Positions 8,865-63,379 of a stretch of DNA of 64,000 bases are shown piece by piece. The DNA is from Brachybacterium kimchii. GTDB taxonomy: Bacteria; Actinomycetota; Actinomycetes; Actinomycetales; Dermabacteraceae. Below the pieces are notes generated by a model. The model was not told the origin of the DNA, made no database searches, and worked only from the letters and a program-made list of their open reading frames with translations. Within the stretch, counting starts at the first letter, position 1, and the number at the start of each line of letters is the position of its first letter. A program made the translations under genes and the position numbers. The stretch lies in assembly GCF_023373525.1 (NCBI RefSeq), contig NZ_CP097218.1, positions 2,852,001 to 2,916,000 of the forward strand, given 5' to 3'.

Positions 8865-9653
8865 ATGTCTGATTTCCTGAAGCAGCGTCCCGGCGCCCCG
8901 CAGGGCTTCTTCGCCGCCGAGGCCGCAGGCCTCGCCTGGCTCGCGGCGCCGCGCGCGGTGCCCGTGGTCGAGGTGCTCGAGGAGGGTGAGGACCACCTGC
9001 GCCTCGAGCGCCTCGAGTCGGTGCGGCCCTCCCCCGAGGATGCCCGCGCCTTCGGCGGGCGCCTCGCCCATCTCCACGACGCAGGGGCCGAGGGATTCGG
9101 CGCCTCCCCGTCGGACACCTCGTGGTTCGGTCCGCTCGACTCGCCGTTCGAACTGCCGACCACCGCCCGCGAGGACTTCGCGACCTTCTGGGCGCAGGAC
9201 CGTCTGGAGCCGCTCGCGCGCCGCGCCTCCCCGCAGCTCGGGGCCGACGGGTCCGCGGCCGTCTCCCGCGCGATCGACGCGATCGCCGGCGGCGCCTTCG
9301 ACGGCGTGAGCGGGCAGGGGCGCGAGGATGCCTCGCGCGTCCACGGCGACCTGTGGTCGGGGAACCTGATGTGGACGGACGCGGGAGGGACGCTCATCGA
9401 CCCCTCGGCGCACGGCGGGCACCGTCTCGAGGATCTCGCGCTGCTGACGATGTTCGGCGCGCCCCACATCGACGCGATCCTCGCGGGCTACGAGGCCGCG
9501 CACCCCATGCCGACGGGGTGGCGCGAGGACCTGCCCGCGCACCTGTTCTTCGCGCTGCTCGCGCACGTGGTCCTGTTCGGGGGCGGCTACGGGGCCGAGA
9601 GCGTGCGCGTCGCGGAGCAGATCACCGAGCGCGCCCGGGATCTCACGACCTGA
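8865..9653 (+). CDS. Fructosamine kinase family protein
   Basis: A 262-residue member of the fructosamine-3-kinase/aminoglycoside-phosphotransferase fold. Key features are the catalytic loop HGDLWSGNLMW near residues 160-170, then IDPSAHGGHRLEDLA with the magnesium-binding Asp, as in bacterial FN3K-like proteins. These phosphorylate ketoamine-modified proteins or free fructosamines so that the sugar comes off. It probably acts in the cytoplasm in glycation repair. TACGGT ends 7 bases before the ATG, so it is probably leaderless. Confidence 0.87.
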   Translation: MSDFLKQRPGAPQGFFAAEAAGLAWLAAPRAVPVVEVLEEGEDHLRLERLESVRPSPEDARAFGGRLAHLHDAGAEGFGASPSDTSWFGPLDSPFELPTTAREDFATFWAQDRLEPLARRASPQLGADGSAAVSRAIDAIAGGAFDGVSGQGREDASRVHGDLWSGNLMWTDAGGTLIDPSAHGGHRLEDLALLTMFGAPHIDAILAGYEAAHPMPTGWREDLPAHLFFALLAHVVLFGGGYGAESVRVAEQITERARDLTT

Positions 9654-9686
9654 GCACGGCCCGGACGCGGGTGCCGTCCGCGCCGG

Positions 9687-10511
9687 TCACGCCCGCGCGA
9701 GGATCTCCCCGTGCAGCAGCACGAACCAGCCGGCGGGATCGTCGGCCCAGCGCTTCCAGTCCTCGCCGATCGCGTCGAGCTCGTCCTGGCTCGCGCGGCC
9801 GGCGTTCAGGAGCTGCTGGGCGACGGCGCCCGCGGTGATGCGCTGCGAGGAGGAACCGGCCCAGAAGGCGCGGTCGGCGGGGGTCGCGTAGCACCAGGTG
9901 CCCGCGCCGGGCTCCACGTCGCTCAGCCCCGCCTCGAGCGCCCAGCCCAGCAGGCGCCGACCGGCGTCGGGCGTGCCGCCGTTGGCGGCCATGGCCTCGA
10001 TGAACAGCTCGCGCCACGTCTCCAGGCCCGGCAGCTCGGGCCACCAGCGGAAGGCGCCGTAGTCGGCCTCGCGGGCGGAGACGATGCCTCCGGGCGCGGT
10101 CACGCGGCGCATCTCGGCCAGCACGCGGACGGGATCGGCGACGTGATGGAGCACCTGGTGGGTGTGGGCGACGTCGAAGGCGGCGTCCGCGAAGGGCAGG
10201 TGGTGGGCGTCGGCCGCACGGACCTCGACGCCCTCGAGGCCCTGGCGGGAGAGCTCGTCGCGGGTGATCCCCGCGGACTCCTCGGAGACCTCGATCGCGG
10301 TGACGTTCTCGGGGCCGACGATGCGGGCGAGGTCCGCGGTGATCGTGCCCGCGCCGCTGCCGACGTCCAGCAGACGCATGCCCTCGCGCAGGTGCGGGAG
10401 GAGGTGCGCGGCCGAGTTCTCGGCGGTGCGGTGCCGGTGGGAGGAGAGCACCGCGTCCTCGTAGCCGTGGGTGTAGTGGTGCTCGTGGCCGTGACCGGGG
10501 TGCTCGCTCAT
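9687..10511 (-). CDS. Class I SAM-dependent methyltransferase
   Basis: A 274-residue methyltransferase. A His-rich start (GHGHEHHYTHGYED) is followed by motif I LLDVGSGAGTIT near residue 47, AIEVSEES, AADAHHLPFADAAFD and the HQVLHHVADPVRVLAEM stretch, as in ubiE/arsM-like enzymes. The substrate is unknown. Its ATG overlaps the stop of the EamA gene (ATGA), so the two can be translationally coupled. TAGCGT also ends 7 bases before the ATG, suggesting an extra internal leaderless promoter. Confidence 0.87.
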   Translation of the reverse strand: MSEHPGHGHEHHYTHGYEDAVLSSHRHRTAENSAAHLLPHLREGMRLLDVGSGAGTITADLARIVGPENVTAIEVSEESAGITRDELSRQGLEGVEVRAADAHHLPFADAAFDVAHTHQVLHHVADPVRVLAEMRRVTAPGGIVSAREADYGAFRWWPELPGLETWRELFIEAMAANGGTPDAGRRLLGWALEAGLSDVEPGAGTWCYATPADRAFWAGSSSQRITAGAVAQQLLNAGRASQDELDAIGEDWKRWADDPAGWFVLLHGEILARA

Positions 10512-56347: not shown

Positions 56348-56989
56348 CTACCCGCCCAGCGTCTTGTACAGGTCGAGGGCGAGGGCCGTGCGGTCGCGGG
56401 CGCTGAGTTTGCGCAGCAGCGCGCTCACGTGGTTCTTCACGGTGCCCTCGGCGAGCACCAGCTCCGCGGCGATCTCGGTGTTCGTGCGGCCCCGGGCCAC
56501 CTGCTCGGCGACCAGGCGCTCGGTGCGGGTGAGGATGGCGAGGGTGTCGGCCTGCGCGTCGGGCCGACGCATCGCTGCCCGGGCCACGCGCGGGTCGATC
56601 ACCATCCCGCCGCTCGCGACAGCACGCACGGCATCGGCCAGGGCGTCGGTCGAGGTGTCCTTGAGCAGGAAGCCGCTCGCGCCGGCAGCGAGCGCGCCCT
56701 GCACCAGCGCGTCGTCGTCGAACGTGGTCAGCAGCAGCACCGGGAGGCGGGGATGCCGCTCGGCGCAGCGGGCCACGAGCTCGACGCCGTCCATCCCGGG
56801 CATGCGGGCGTCGGTGAGGACCACGTCGACAGGCCGACGGTCGAGCACAGCGAGGGCCTCGGCGCCATCGGCCGCCTCCCCGGCGATCTCGAGGTCCGTG
56901 ACGGTGGACAGCAGCATCGTCAGGCCGCGCCGCAGCAGCTGCTGGTCATCGACGAGCAGCACGCGCAGCGCAGCCGTCTCCGCCCTCAT
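56348..56989 (-). CDS. NarL/LuxR-type response regulator
   Basis: A 213-residue response regulator. The receiver domain has acidic LVDDQQLL near residue 13, the phosphate acceptor in VVLTDARMPG near 60 and Lys in LLKDTS near 110. The LuxR-type HTH runs from LTRTERLVAEQVARGRTNTEIA to GTVKNHVSALLRKL (about 150-200). The start overlaps the kinase stop (ATGA), so kinase and regulator are co-translated. Confidence 0.93.
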   Translation of the reverse strand: MRAETAALRVLLVDDQQLLRRGLTMLLSTVTDLEIAGEAADGAEALAVLDRRPVDVVLTDARMPGMDGVELVARCAERHPRLPVLLLTTFDDDALVQGALAAGASGFLLKDTSTDALADAVRAVASGGMVIDPRVARAAMRRPDAQADTLAILTRTERLVAEQVARGRTNTEIAAELVLAEGTVKNHVSALLRKLSARDRTALALDLYKTLGG

Positions 56990-58275
56990 CGGGCGACCCC
57001 GGTCGCCGTGCGGCCGACGCCGCCGACCACACCTCGGGGTGAGCCGCTCGCGCGCGAGAGGTCGGGCACCGGGAGCTGCAGCGCGACGAGGAAGCGGTCG
57101 CCCTCACGTGCGGCGCGCAGGCCACCGCCGCGAGCGAGCGCGCGCTCGGCCAGTCCGCGCAGGCCGAAGCCCGGTTCGGCCTCACCGTCGGGCACCTGGG
57201 CGCCGGGCCCCAGGTCATTGCTCATCCGCAGGCGCAGCTGCCCGTCAGCGGCGTGGAGCCCGAGACGCACCTCGCGCGCGCGCCCGTGCCGCAGGGCGTT
57301 CGTCAGCCCCTCCTGCACGGCGCGGTAGACGAGCAGCGAGAGGGCATCATCCGTGGTGAGCACGGTGTTCGAGCGGTCGTCGACCGTGACCTCGACCGCG
57401 AGGCCGGTGCCGCGGAAGGACTCGGCGATGGCGTCGAGCGCCGCGGCGCCCCGGGCGGCGGGATCGCGCACCGGGCTGAGCGCGCGCACCCAGGTGCGCA
57501 TCTCCTCGAGGGCGTCCTGCGAGGTGGTGCGCGCCTGGGCGACCTCGTCCCAGGCGGCCCGTGCGTCCCGCTCGCGCATCCGCTCGGCGAAGTCGAGGCT
57601 CATGGAGACCAGGGTGAGGCGGTGGCCGAGCCCGTCGTGCAGCTCTCGGGCGCTGCGGGCCCGCTCGTCCGCCAGCAGCAGCTCCTTCTCGGTCTCCGCG
57701 GCCCGCCGCAGGCGGTCGATGAGGGCCGCGTCGCGCCGCAGCTGCCGCTCGTAGGCGCGCAGCGTCCAGCCCAGCACGATCCCGAAGCCCAGCAGGACCA
57801 TCACCGGGACAGAGTTCACCAGCCCGATGGCGAATCCCGTCCCCAGATCGCCCCAACTGGCCACGTGCAGGGCCACGCCCAGCACACCGATCCAGGCCGT
57901 CGCGACGACCCCGGCGCGCACCGAGGCGTCGAGCACCACGAGGGCCACCGCCAGCAGGAGCACGGGGACCGTGAAGCCGATCCGCCCGAACACGGCCACG
58001 GGCGTGACGAGCAGGACCACCACGGCGGAGAGGATCGCGCGCGAGCGGGGCGTGCGCAGCCGGGGCCGCAGCATCCAGGCGAGGGCGATCAGGACCGCCA
58101 GCGCGCCCCACACGACCGACAGCACCCAGACGCGCCCCGCTCCCGGGCCCTGCTCCAGGGGCAGGCCCAGAACTGCGGCGATCACGAGGCACACGAGCGC
58201 GAGGGACTGGAGCACGGGCAGCATGCGGCGGGGCAGGCTCGGGGCAGGGGCCGTGGTCGCCGGCAGCTCGCTCAT
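56986..58275 (-). CDS. NarL-type sensor histidine kinase
   Basis: A 429-residue kinase with about six N-terminal helices (residues 20-170), a HisKA_3 dimerisation domain with the phospho-His in ARELHDGLGHRLTL near 212, and an ATPase domain (VYRAVQEGLTNALRHG, then GFGLRGLAERA). It has no extracellular sensor domain, like kinases that sense the membrane itself. TACGGT ends 6 bases before ATG 58275. It is divergent from a CPBP protease. Confidence 0.92.
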   Translation of the reverse strand: MSELPATTAPAPSLPRRMLPVLQSLALVCLVIAAVLGLPLEQGPGAGRVWVLSVVWGALAVLIALAWMLRPRLRTPRSRAILSAVVVLLVTPVAVFGRIGFTVPVLLLAVALVVLDASVRAGVVATAWIGVLGVALHVASWGDLGTGFAIGLVNSVPVMVLLGFGIVLGWTLRAYERQLRRDAALIDRLRRAAETEKELLLADERARSARELHDGLGHRLTLVSMSLDFAERMRERDARAAWDEVAQARTTSQDALEEMRTWVRALSPVRDPAARGAAALDAIAESFRGTGLAVEVTVDDRSNTVLTTDDALSLLVYRAVQEGLTNALRHGRAREVRLGLHAADGQLRLRMSNDLGPGAQVPDGEAEPGFGLRGLAERALARGGGLRAAREGDRFLVALQLPVPDLSRASGSPRGVVGGVGRTATGVAR

Positions 58276-58310
58276 GGTGCCACCGTAGGGGGATCGCCCC
58301 CGCACCGACC

Positions 58311-58326
58311 CATGACCGCGGTCATG
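58311..58326. promoter_or_regulatory. 16-bp palindrome, likely response-regulator site
   Basis: CATGACCGCGGTCATG is perfectly symmetric. Its centre is about 43 bases upstream of the presumed kinase transcript start and 65 bases upstream of the CPBP start. That is a typical activator position for the two-component operon. Confidence 0.6.
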
Positions 58327-58383
58327 ACCTCCGGTGACCCGAGGGGGACGTTCCCGGCGCGGCGTCTTCCTAGCGTCGGGGAC

Positions 58384-59963: not shown

Positions 59964-59998
59964 CGGGGCCTCCCGTCCTGGTCGGACGGGAGGCCCCG
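59964..59998. terminator. Bidirectional terminator after DUF488
   Basis: A perfect 15-bp stem (59964-59978 with 59984-59998) with a 5-base loop lies between the convergent DUF488 and C39-like genes. Confidence 0.8.
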
Positions 59999-60036
59999 GC
60001 GTTCTGGCGAACCCGTGCTCGCGCAGCGCAACGCCG

Positions 60037-60756
60037 TCAGCCGGCGACGACGCTTCCCACTCCCGGCGTGTCGGCGAAGTTGGCGTAGTACGTGTCGAGC
60101 CAGCTCGACTTCACCTGGTGCGGGGTGTTCGCATCAGCGGCGGACAGCGGATCCAGCACCGTGTACTCGTCGGTGTCGGCGTCGTAGTCGACGACGACGA
60201 TCCAGTGCAGGATCGGGGTCTTCGCTGAGAGAGCATCGGGGCTGATGTTGACGTTCCACCAGGGGGCGGCCGCCTGGGCATCGCCCATGACGATGGCGAC
60301 CTTCCCGTCCCGGACGGCCTTCTTGGCGGCGCCCAGGTCGTACTCCTCGTGCGCGTCGACGCCATAGGCCTTGAAGCCCTCCACGCCCTGGCCGATCATC
60401 GTGCCGCCGCCATCGGTCTCGTTCATCGAGGCCTTCATGTTCTGGACGGTGGCGTCGGTGCTGGAAGCCTCACCGGTCCACCCCTTCGGGGTCTTGCCCA
60501 GGGCGAGGAGCGCCATGCTCACGCTCGTGGGTCCGCACTCGTGCCACGGGTCCACGGTCGTGTCCCCCTGGCGCATCGGGACGATCTTGCCGTCCTTCGC
60601 GGCGAGCTTCGCCGGCGCGACGACGGACTGCGGGGCGGCGGGAGCCTGCGTGGGCGTCGTCGCGACGGCGCCGGGTGCGGCGAGGCCCACGAGGAGGGCG
60701 GCGCCGGCAGTGCCGGTCGCGGCGAAGGTCGCGAAGCGGGTGGTGCGGTTGCGCAT
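60037..60756 (-). CDS. Secreted C39-like cysteine peptidase
   Basis: A 239-residue exported protein with a Sec signal peptide (basic MRNRTTRF, hydrophobic to about residue 30, ending near AVATT). The mature part is papain-like of the C39 type, with catalytic Cys in WHECGPTSVSMALLALG near 75, His in ILHWIVVVDYD near 190 and the Asp-containing VLDPLS after it. It may process peptides or act on the wall outside the cell. GAGAGGA precedes ATG 60756. Its promoter carries the palindrome shared with the CHAP operon. Confidence 0.83.
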   Translation of the reverse strand: MRNRTTRFATFAATGTAGAALLVGLAAPGAVATTPTQAPAAPQSVVAPAKLAAKDGKIVPMRQGDTTVDPWHECGPTSVSMALLALGKTPKGWTGEASSTDATVQNMKASMNETDGGGTMIGQGVEGFKAYGVDAHEEYDLGAAKKAVRDGKVAIVMGDAQAAAPWWNVNISPDALSAKTPILHWIVVVDYDADTDEYTVLDPLSAADANTPHQVKSSWLDTYYANFADTPGVGSVVAG

Positions 60757-60838
60757 GTCGAATCCTCTCGCTGTGCGCATCCTCGGGAGGGTGCGCTGTC
60801 GTTCGGTGTTCGGGAACCACCTTCGACCGCCGCCCCGT

Positions 60839-60888
60839 GCCCGCACCATCGGTCCCGGTCCGATCTTCGCCCTGGAGGTCCTAGGACC
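60839..60888 (-). promoter_or_regulatory. Shared activator site and promoter of the C39-like gene
   Basis: Palindrome GGTCCTAGGACC (60877-60888), exactly 24 bases, then GCCCGCACCATCGG (60839-60852; minus strand -10 GATGGT at 60850-60845). The palindrome would be centred near -44.5 from a transcript start near 60838. The same architecture recurs at 63325-63379. Confidence 0.7.
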
Positions 60889-60918
60889 CCTTCCGCCGCA
60901 CCGCTCGCGGGGACGGGA

Positions 60919-61965
60919 TCAGCCCGTCGTCGAGCGGGAGCTCGCGAGCGAGCCGTCCGCTCCGCCGTGGAGGACGAGCGCGAGGCCGGAGCGCTGGGTC
61001 TGGCCGCACTTGCGCAGGATCGCCCCCACATGGGTCTTCACCGTCTTGACCGAGATGAACAGCCGCTCGGCGATCTCGACGTTCGTCAGGTTCTCGGTGA
61101 CGATGAGGAGCGCGATCTCCTCCTCGCGCGGCGTGAGGCCGGGGTCGGGCGATGTCGCGGCGTCCGACGCCGGGAGGGGGGCCGTGGCCGCCATCTGCGC
61201 CAGATGCGTGGATGCCTCCTCGCACAGTCGCGAGAGGACCTCAGCGCGTGCGGTCACCTCGTCCCGGGCGTCCTCCGGGACGGCCGACGGGAGCGCGAGG
61301 AGACCTCGGCGCACGGAGTCCATGAGGCTCGCCGCTTCGTGGAGCTGATCGATGCCGTCCCCCGTCGAGGGCACGAGCTCGGGGAACTGGGCGTGGAGGG
61401 TCTCGTCCTCGATACCGGTGCCGGGATCATCGGCGACCGTGCCCAGGAGGTGCGCGAGGGCCTCGACGATGCGGACGTGCCCGGTGTCGAAGGCGTTCTC
61501 GACGAGCGAGTGGACGCCGAGGAATCCGCGCACCGCGTCATCGCGGTCACGGATCGGAGCGAGCACGGCGTCACGGCTGGGTTCGGAACCGTCGCCGAAG
61601 GACACGGAGTCGCAGAGCATCCGGCCGTCGTCGTCGCCGAAGCGGTACGTGGTCCCCGTGTCGCGGACCCAGCGAGCGGCGGTGCCGGCGCGAAGATGCA
61701 ACACGTCGGGCGCCTCGAGCACACCTTGCTGTTCGGCATACGGGACGACCATCAGATCGTCCCGGAACAGTCCGACGACGAGCGCATCGACGGGCAGCAG
61801 CGTCGTGGCGGCATGGTGCACCGCCTCGTAGCGGTCCCGCGGCCGGTCCTGGTCGATCGCGCGCAGGCGACGCGCGGTGCGTCGCAGGATCGTCGCCGTG
61901 GTCTCGTCGCGCTGCCTCTCGGAATCGGCGGTGCCCGGCGGGGGCGCGGTGGAAGACGTGCTCAC
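60919..61965 (-). CDS. GAF-like/LuxR-type transcriptional regulator
   Basis: A 348-residue regulator. The N-terminal half (about residues 20-190) has a GAF-like sensor pattern: AIDQDRPRDRYEAVHHAATTLLPVDALVVGLFRDD (in two stretches), YRFGDDDGRMLCDS and VRGFLGVHSLVENAFD. The C-terminus is a LuxR HTH, LTPREEEIALLIVTENLTN to SVKTVKTHVGAILRK (about 275-333). There is no receiver domain. It lies between the C39-like gene and the CHAP operon, whose promoters share a palindrome. TACTCT ends 6 bases before GTG 61965, so it is probably leaderless. Confidence 0.84.
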   Translation of the reverse strand: MSTSSTAPPPGTADSERQRDETTATILRRTARRLRAIDQDRPRDRYEAVHHAATTLLPVDALVVGLFRDDLMVVPYAEQQGVLEAPDVLHLRAGTAARWVRDTGTTYRFGDDDGRMLCDSVSFGDGSEPSRDAVLAPIRDRDDAVRGFLGVHSLVENAFDTGHVRIVEALAHLLGTVADDPGTGIEDETLHAQFPELVPSTGDGIDQLHEAASLMDSVRRGLLALPSAVPEDARDEVTARAEVLSRLCEEASTHLAQMAATAPLPASDAATSPDPGLTPREEEIALLIVTENLTNVEIAERLFISVKTVKTHVGAILRKCGQTQRSGLALVLHGGADGSLASSRSTTG

Positions 61966-61985
61966 GGATCGAGAGTAAGCGCCGA

Positions 61986-62020
61986 CCCCTGGCCCCCGTC
62001 GAGAGGACGGCAGTCAGGGG
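61986..62020 (-). terminator. Hairpin after the CHAP operon
   Basis: Outer arms CCCCTG/CAGGGG and inner arms CCGTC/GACGG around GAGAG form an imperfect hairpin between the CHAP stop and the LuxR-type gene start. Confidence 0.45.
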
Positions 62021-62103
62021 CCGGCGCGCGCGGGGCCACCGGATCGCTGGGGGCTGCGATGGGGGTCCGGGGCTCGTCGTGGGAACGCCGGAGCGTGCGG
62101 CTG

Positions 62104-62643
62104 TCAGGGATGGATGTAGCTCATCCCCGGCAGGTCCTGCACGACGCGGGAGTCGAACACGCCGACTCCGCCGCCGAGCTCGGGCGGCCCGTTCATCTCG
62201 GTGATGTGCACCCCGGCGTCGTCCACCGCGTCGACCCACGCGACGTGACCGTAGTTCGGGTCCGCACCCTGCACCCCGGCTTCGAAGACGACGATCGCAT
62301 GGACCTTCGCGTCGGCGGAGACGCTCAGTCCTGCTGCCCCGGCGGCATCGTCCCACTGCGCGGCGTTGCCGGTCAGCGCGGGGAAGTAGCCGTACTGCTC
62401 ACGGAACTTCTGTGCCGCGCCCTCGGTGCACTGGCCGGAGAGTCCCGGGTTGCTCGTGCCGTGCACGGGCTCCGCCGACGCGCGGGTCGCCGGCAGCGCG
62501 GTCACGCCGACGCCGGCCAGAGCCGTGACGCCGAGGCCCATGAGCAGGTGGCGTCGTGTCGGCTTCGCAGTGCACCGTGCGTCCACAGTGGAAGTCTGAG
62601 TCGCGCAGTCCATGTCTGGTGCGTTCGTCGCGATCTCCGTCAT
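62104..62643 (-). CDS. Tat-exported CHAP-domain peptidoglycan hydrolase
   Basis: A 179-residue protein with a twin-arginine signal (TRRHLLMGLG near residue 29) and cleavage near TRASA. The mature CHAP domain has the Cys in LSGQCTEGAAQKF, His in NYGHVAWVDAV and HITEMNG. CHAP enzymes cut peptidoglycan amide or peptide bonds. I chose ATG 62643 for AGGAAGGA 7 bases upstream. An in-frame ATG at 62673 overlaps the preceding stop (ATGA) and is an alternative. It is second in the operon with the lysozyme-like protein. Confidence 0.83.
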   Translation of the reverse strand: MTEIATNAPDMDCATQTSTVDARCTAKPTRRHLLMGLGVTALAGVGVTALPATRASAEPVHGTSNPGLSGQCTEGAAQKFREQYGYFPALTGNAAQWDDAAGAAGLSVSADAKVHAIVVFEAGVQGADPNYGHVAWVDAVDDAGVHITEMNGPPELGGGVGVFDSRVVQDLPGMSYIHP

Positions 62644-62669
62644 GCTGCTGTCCTTCCTCTCGTCCTCGG

Positions 62670-63266
62670 TCATCCCGTGAACGGGGCGATCGAGCCCCAG
62701 GTGTTGTAGATGTCGGTGGCTGCGGCGGCCCAGTCCTGGTAACGGGGCTTGAGGTCTTCTCGTGGGCTCTGCACCGCGGAGGCGGCCTCCCACAGCGACA
62801 TGTCCTCCCAGCCCGCCGTCTGGAGCAGGCCGTTGTTGTTCGTGTGCTCAGAGCCGGGGACCCCGTAGAACGCCTTGGTGGCCAGGAGCTTGTGGCAGAC
62901 CTGGCTGTGGGTTCCCCAGCCCGCGGCGGGGCGCTGCTGGAAGAGGCCCCCGGAGTCGGCGTCCAGGGCCGCGTGGATGTTCAGCAGCATGGATTCGCGG
63001 ATCGCCGTGGCGAGCGCGACCTCGATGCCGAACCGGGGGATGTCGTGGCCCTTGCCCACGGCCATGATCAGCTTGGCGTTGTCGACCTGCGCGTCGAGCA
63101 TGGCGTCGATCTTGATGTCCCCTGTGTACTGCGCACCCTCGTCGCGGGTGAAGAAGGCTTCATCGAACGTCGGGTCCGCTGCGAGAGCGGGGGCGGCGCC
63201 CGCGAGGGTGATCGCGCCGATCGCTCCTCCGATCAGCAGGCCCCTGCGCGTCATCGGGTGAGTCAT
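62670..63266 (-). CDS. Tat-exported lysozyme-like wall enzyme
   Basis: A 198-residue protein with a twin-arginine signal (MTRRGLLIGGA) cleaved near AALAADP. The mature part has text typical of an actinobacterial lysozyme/transglycosylase-like fold: VALATAIRESMLLNIHAAL with the Glu near residue 102, then SGGLFQQRPAAGWGT and KAFYGV. It likely acts on cell walls or on a related glycan, but the reaction is not proven. GGAAGG precedes ATG 63266. Its stop overlaps the alternative ATG of the CHAP gene. Confidence 0.75.
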   Translation of the reverse strand: MTHPMTRRGLLIGGAIGAITLAGAAPALAADPTFDEAFFTRDEGAQYTGDIKIDAMLDAQVDNAKLIMAVGKGHDIPRFGIEVALATAIRESMLLNIHAALDADSGGLFQQRPAAGWGTHSQVCHKLLATKAFYGVPGSEHTNNNGLLQTAGWEDMSLWEAASAVQSPREDLKPRYQDWAAAATDIYNTWGSIAPFTG

Positions 63267-63324
63267 CACGGTCCTTCCGTCGAGCGGTCATCTCTGACAT
63301 CCGGAAGTCTTCTCCGGCGCTCTC

Positions 63325-63379
63325 GCCCGCACCATCGGACCGAGGCCGACTTCTGCACGGCGGGTCCTAGGACCCGCCG
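63325..63379 (-). promoter_or_regulatory. Shared activator site and promoter of the wall-enzyme operon
   Basis: The core GGTCCTAGGACC (63363-63374) extends to a perfect 22-base palindrome at 63358-63379. Exactly 24 bases separate the core from GCCCGCACCATCGG (63325-63338), whose minus strand gives -10 GATGGT at 63336-63331. The centre lies near -44.5, as in the C39-like promoter. Confidence 0.7.

Follow-up and report, generated by a model that had tools for sequence, protein, structure and literature searches.

A stretch of 64,000 nucleotides (nt) of the Brachybacterium kimchii genome (contig NZ_CP097218.1, positions 2,852,001–2,916,000, forward strand; hereafter the window) contains two promoters that share a composite element, a palindrome (GGTCCTAGGACC) followed at a fixed distance by a core block (CCGATGGTGCGGGC). 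The gene of a LuxR-type regulator lies between the two sites, and both sites precede genes for putatively secreted, cell wall-acting proteins. Judging from the sequence, we consider it very likely that the regulator is a one-component activator that turns on these secreted wall enzymes through its own local operator. The element is rare, keeps its spacing and accompanies a subfamily of such regulators in three families of the order.

Both copies of the element were located on the minus strand (60888–60839 and 63374–63325), and each consisted of GGTCCTAGGACC, 24 nt and CCGATGGTGCGGGC with zero mismatches. Site 1 preceded the gene of a C39-like peptidase, while site 2 preceded a lysozyme-like/CHAP gene pair. 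The minus strand encodes all four genes, which follow one another as lysozyme-like, CHAP, regulator and C39:

63363–63374, minus strand: operator palindrome of site 2, within a 22-bp perfect palindrome (63358–63379).
63325–63355, minus strand: core promoter block of site 2, with a putative −10 hexamer GATGGT at 63336–63331.
62670–63266, minus strand: secreted lysozyme-like protein (TAxxES ... GLFQQRPxxGWG), with a Tat-like signal by eye and without a Pfam match.
62104–62643, minus strand: secreted CHAP-domain protein, amidase/endopeptidase-like, with a Tat-like signal by eye.
60919–61965, minus strand: regulator of 348 amino acids (aa), with a GAF domain (approximately residues 18–181) and a LuxR/GerE helix-turn-helix (HTH; residues 277–330).
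60877–60888, minus strand: operator palindrome of site 1 (GGTCCTAGGACC), 30 nt past the regulator stop codon and ahead of the C39 gene.
60839–60869, minus strand: core promoter block of site 1, with a presumed −10 hexamer GATGGT at 60850–60845.
60037–60756, minus strand: secreted C39-like cysteine peptidase of 239 aa (Peptidase_C39_2, 35.1 bits, cut-off 24), with a signal-peptide-like N-terminus by eye.

A preliminary description of this DNA had claimed an architecture shared by two promoters with an exact spacing of 24 bases, and this was confirmed: the only matches of the composite in the own genome at up to three mismatches were the two window sites (weaker sites outside the window were not scanned for). 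No match at this stringency was found in the 37 other genomes of the genus that were searched. The regulator gene was indeed situated between the two sites, as claimed, although the lysozyme-like and CHAP genes also lie there. The exact 12-mer GGTCCTAGGACC occurred at two places in the 4,348,474-base genome, both inside the window, and was thus not scattered at random sites, the outcome that had been named as speaking against a regulon. Taken alone, the 12-mer means little, because 0.46 copies were expected from the composition of the genome and matches with two mismatches in the window were no more common than in shuffles (4 seen, 3.48 expected). Both outer blocks of the composite had been selected in the preliminary description for agreeing, leaving the middle 24 columns as the unselected part. 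Twelve of these 24 columns agreed, against an expectation of 0.30 per column. In total, the sites were identical at 38 of 50 positions (12/12, 12/24 and 14/14 in the three parts), with 10/20 agreeing just upstream and 6/30 in the next 30 nt downstream.

The C-terminal HTH of the regulator scored 43.3 bits against GerE (cut-off 23.5), which places it in the LuxR/GerE family, and its N-terminal half was a GAF domain (VIA-align), as in GAF one-component regulators. No Response_reg match was obtained at E 0.1, so the protein is not a two-component response regulator, nor was any Pfam match to an autoinducer-binding domain obtained at the same threshold. An identification as RamA was rejected, since NCBIfam NF041673 gave 13.4 bits against a cut-off of 500. 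In the C39-like protein, a predicted peptidase with a recognised C39_2 domain, the Cys in HECGPTS and the His in ILHWI were read from the sequence. The lysozyme-like protein was assigned a lysozyme-like fold with the catalytic Glu.

Nearly full-length regulator homologs (34–36% identity) were found in three others of 347 genomes of the order (G126, G253 and G165) and, besides the own genome, only in G126 among 394 genomes of the class; both searches scored the best five to six candidates per genome, and homologs may be missed. In G253, which belongs to another family, genes for a regulator homolog (35%), a C39 homolog (tblastn E 1e-16, against four loci) and a lysozyme-like protein were neighbours, and the element was present upstream of the lysozyme-like gene. 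A scan restricted to the columns identical in both window sites placed this promoter at the top of 19.5 kb, both strands included (25 vs 24 of 38 columns for the next place). In eight further homolog loci, the same scan gave a top site at the end of the regulator gene, on the same strand, in L070, L072, L077 and L078. A regulator-alignment scan of a collection of named genomes retained 80 loci, of which L074–L078 were matched along almost their entire length and the others mainly over the HTH. An exact search of this collection with a relaxed composite returned no match; the pattern was too strict, and the own genome was possibly left out. The element was found neither beside the genome's own lysozyme paralog (L163) nor beside C39 genes that lack the regulator (L169, L171 and L172), in keeping with a specific association. 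The C39-like proteins at L171 (5123–6226) and L172 (5556–6878), both from the same genus, carried two peptidoglycan-binding repeats and had no element upstream.

In the G126 family, a regulator homolog was detected in 28 of 186 genomes at E 1e-18. Among the 38 matches listed, 30 had loci and were read, with seven identical to L070, L072 and L074–L078 counted once. The palindrome (at least 10 of 12 bases) was situated within −60 to +150 of the regulator stop in 19 of the 30 loci, exactly in nine of them, and neither strand of the 30 loci (117,592 bases) contained a further match of this quality. These 19 loci comprised L201 and 18 of the 19 loci in which the element is followed by a stretch of hairpins with G-run loops (the G-loop stretch, described below). 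The remaining G-loop locus, L185, retained 9 of 12 palindrome bases, a level also reached by two loci without the element. In a tree of 33 regulators, the 21 rows with the element, the window row among them, clustered (3 changes, shuffled mean 10.0). The absence of conservation that had been named as a possible refutation was the opposite of what was observed, and the proposed link between element and regulator is well supported by comparison across three families. The term 'regulon of wall-active proteins' held for this genome and G253, weakly for L201, but not for the whole subfamily: among the 30 relatives' loci, 19 carried a putative non-coding RNA in the place of the wall genes and 10 lacked the element.

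At L201 (569–1444, minus strand), the second regulator copy of G1146, the gene was followed by that of a protein that looks secreted and carries PG_binding_1 and NlpC/P60 domains, and GGTCCCGGGACC was present at the regulator end. The element scored 9.2 bits there, inside the shuffled range (up to 12.0), and L201 may count as a weak case of the wall-gene association. In L173–L176, the TAG stop codon of the regulator coincided with the TAG within the operator CCTAGG. L174 had a second operator-like sequence, GGTCCTAGACCT then ACCGATGGC, past the G-loop hairpin (approximately 1266, minus strand; profile score −5.2), perhaps a second promoter.

Eighteen G126-family loci served to train a profile, from which the window, G253, L180 and L201 were held out, and both strands were scanned. 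Over the 64-kb window, site 1 scored 37.4 bits and site 2 36.5 bits, with the third-best place at 1.3 bits and a best score of 12.0 bits in 15 shuffled windows. The lysozyme promoter of G253 scored 31.1 bits, and the next place 8.5 bits.

The alignment of 23 sites showed the palindrome, a spacer of 22–25 nt and GnCnATRG, preceded at a short distance by conserved AA and T. L180 fitted this spacing only from an overlapping second palindrome (30 nt otherwise), and L201 fitted the core poorly (7/9). The promoter core common to the sites was AAnnT-n2-GnC-n3-GnCnATRG, with no recognisable −35 at the usual distance. Given the −10-like NATRG and the missing −35, the palindrome would stand in the place of a class-II activator site, and this position favours activation by the adjacent LuxR-type protein. 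In the mechanism that we propose, the product of 60919–61965 would act as a LuxR-type one-component activator that senses through its GAF domain, binding GGTCCTAGGACC as a dimer centred approximately 44.5 bp upstream of the transcription start, a class-II position. It would recruit RNA polymerase to promoters without a −35, with site 1 driving the C39-like peptidase and site 2 the lysozyme-like/CHAP pair. A cytoplasmic signal could in this way switch on secreted enzymes predicted to act on peptidoglycan. We infer binding, activation rather than repression, the −10, the start site, the signal and the activities of the enzymes.

LuxR-type regulators of this kind can activate or repress. The regulator might bind the palindrome as a repressor that is released by a GAF ligand, and additional GGnCC-like half-sites just upstream of the −10 would fit this; the lack of a recognisable −35 and the spacing of 22–25 nt kept across 23 sites would, however, be expected if an activator substituted for the −35 contact, and we regard repression as unlikely. 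It is distinctly less probable that another protein reads the palindrome, or that it is a general promoter element with the regulator nearby by coincidence. This explanation can draw on the comparative nature of the binding argument and on the 0.46 copies of the 12-mer expected by chance. Against it stand the only two exact sites of the genome, both flanking the regulator gene, and the same subfamily association in three families; a pattern built from the three known sites occurred nowhere else in 396 genomes of the order, although its reversed control gave only 3 matches, so that few matches by chance were to be expected. The palindrome could also be imagined as the terminator hairpin of the regulator gene rather than an operator, since it is positioned at or near the regulator stop in the window and 19 relatives, and some copies have long arms (L182, 28 bp). 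Yet it is the sequence of the inner 12 bases that is conserved, with variable arms; a loop would hardly fit, a U run is missing, the core block follows at an almost constant distance, and neither site 2 nor the G253 site lies downstream of the regulator, which makes a terminator very improbable. A recent, functionless short duplication, suggested by the 38 identical positions and the agreement just upstream, is hardly credible, as identity drops to 6/30 downstream and other families show the same columns conserved.

Several observations weigh against activation by the adjacent regulator through this element. The argument that the regulator binds the element is now strong but comparative, and the putative class-II arrangement combines a conserved palindrome-to-core spacing with predicted start sites. 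No full-length regulator homolog was found among 35 same-genus genomes, in which the matches listed covered the HTH region. Ten G126-family loci (L191, L193–L200 and L202) had no element, nor did L073, the second regulator paralog of G253, and the G253 element was not placed at the regulator stop. The shared-column scan put its top site elsewhere in L073–L076, and L074–L076 had the element at the regulator end in a more divergent form only. On the regulator tree, the branch of the window row was long (2.47), which may have caused an artefactual pairing with G253. The profile was not wholly independent, since its training sites were found via the window 12-mer and the core was aligned after having been seen in all sites. 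With the core block alone, site 1 (score 16.6) and site 2 (15.7) still took the first two ranks on both strands of the window but were separated only modestly from an unrelated third place (13.3); in G253 the element site ranked first (22.8, second 18.1). The L073 paralog (8942–9928, minus strand) was followed by a small-protein gene (about 8820–8600) with a signal-peptide-like start.

In the 19 G-loop loci (L173–L190 and L192), seven of which have named equivalents in Flexivirga, Allobranchiibius, Leekyejoonella and Luteipulveratus, hairpins with G-run loops followed directly past the operator, downstream of the regulator stop. No wall gene followed the regulator in the 330 nt read at these loci, and in four loci with open reading frames (ORFs) listed further on, the next same-strand gene did not encode a wall protein by eye. 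In 17 of the 19 loci (not in L189 and L190), a G-run loop was closed by a perfect stem of 7 bp or more, compared with 10 of 982 control windows of the same loci and with L199 alone among 11 loci lacking the full element. On the sense strand, runs of four or more G outnumbered those of C (56 vs 15). The stems varied between lineages while the G-run was retained, and RNAalifold returned mainly G-loop hairpins for four subgroups. Folding was more stable than in shuffles for L078 (z −4.2), L070 (z −3.4) and L072 (z −4.7); the L077 stretch was not more stable than shuffles (z −0.87). A strong hairpin plus a T run was present in L179 and L180, both from Flexivirga. No Rfam match was found in the 17 of 19 stretches scanned (8 loci at gathering, 10 further loci at E 0.5; L181 and L183 left out). 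A weak RsmY match at L184 (401–505, minus strand; 25.1 bits, cut-off 57) was located outside the G-loop stretch and is probably due to chance.

The G-loop stretch may thus represent a previously undescribed small RNA. Some start codons of small ORFs in the stretch had an upstream purine run, and no peptide common across lineages was seen by eye; an encoded small protein is not excluded. The chances appear even that regulator and operator form a portable switch, which would drive a G-loop small RNA in most carriers seen, in a Gac/Rsm-like layout, and wall enzymes in the window genome and G253. No prior report of the operator or the G-loop RNA was found among the open-access papers that literature searches listed. 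Ms1 RNA, which is linked to a HAD hydrolase gene (PMC9130861), was considered as the identity of the stretch and judged unlikely, as this gene was not recognised by eye among the listed neighbours. Pairing of the G-loops with C-rich loops, for example those found in 6C RNA, is only an idea. Of 36 genomes, 22 had an RF01066 match at E 0.001 (above the cut-off in 10), namely 14 of the 19 G-loop carriers and 8 of 15 others of the G126 family, and neither G000 nor G253 had one. This distribution gives no support either way to the G-loop RNA as a sponge of 6C RNA.

Two further features were noted between the CHAP and regulator genes:

61979–62027, minus strand: stable hairpin, terminator-like, without a U run.
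61972–61977, minus strand: TACTCT, a putative −10-like hexamer six bases ahead of the GTG start codon of the regulator.

The 138-nt intergenic stretch folded with z −2.61, and 2 of 200 shuffles were equally stable. The position of TACTCT suggests a separate leaderless transcript of the regulator. A G+C-rich hairpin at 59965–60000 (GGGGCCTCCCGTCC...GGACGGGAGGCCCC), between the DUF488 and C39 genes, is likely a shared terminator. At 56348–58350, the window encoded a separate response regulator with a LuxR HTH, the start of which was overlapped by a frame that looked histidine-kinase-like by eye; no link to the element was seen. The G+C content of the region was 0.68–0.72, compared with 0.72–0.76 just upstream, and its distribution across genomes was patchy, which is compatible with acquisition but no proof of it. 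A mobile element was rejected as an explanation: the C39 gene had no match in plasmid or phage records, and the regulator matched plasmids (2 records) only via its HTH.

A regulator of previously unassigned role thereby gains a defined putative operator and target set from sequence alone, and the control of secreted wall enzymes is tentatively tied to a GAF-type sensor. Through the same operator, a candidate small-RNA family with G-rich loops comes into view in Flexivirga, Luteipulveratus, Allobranchiibius, Leekyejoonella and kin. The comparison also suggests that the operator was kept while the output changed from a putative RNA to secreted enzymes. LuxR-type one-component regulators that have a palindromic operator nearby are a known kind of system; the unusual part, outside the window, is the change of output between secreted wall enzymes and a candidate G-loop RNA.

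Among known systems, the DosR/DevR operator of Mycobacterium (TTSGGGACTWWAGTCCCSAA; PMC2275270) is likewise an actinobacterial site for a LuxR-family regulator, palindromic and rich in G/C. It differs in its core sequence, and DosR is a response regulator with a large regulon, whereas the regulator described here has no receiver domain and two local exact sites. Rpf acts on the cell wall. RamA of Corynebacterium glutamicum, a LuxR-type activator of rpf2 (PMC4448153), is comparable as an actinobacterial LuxR-type regulator that activates a resuscitation-factor gene, but it has many metabolic targets. The 6C RNA of actinobacteria (RF01066) also forms hairpins with homopolymer loops; these are C-rich, in contrast to the G-rich loops on the presumed sense strand of the stretches described here. 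GacA carries a LuxR-type HTH. In Pseudomonas, a palindromic site is located upstream of the RsmX/Y/Z RNAs, the GGA motifs of which sequester RsmA (PMC2375449). The relatives of the window regulator resemble this system in combining a LuxR-type HTH regulator, a palindromic upstream site and a short candidate RNA with a repeated unpaired G-containing motif. GacA belongs to a two-component system, whereas here the regulator gene abuts the candidate RNA and the loops contain runs of 4–6 G.

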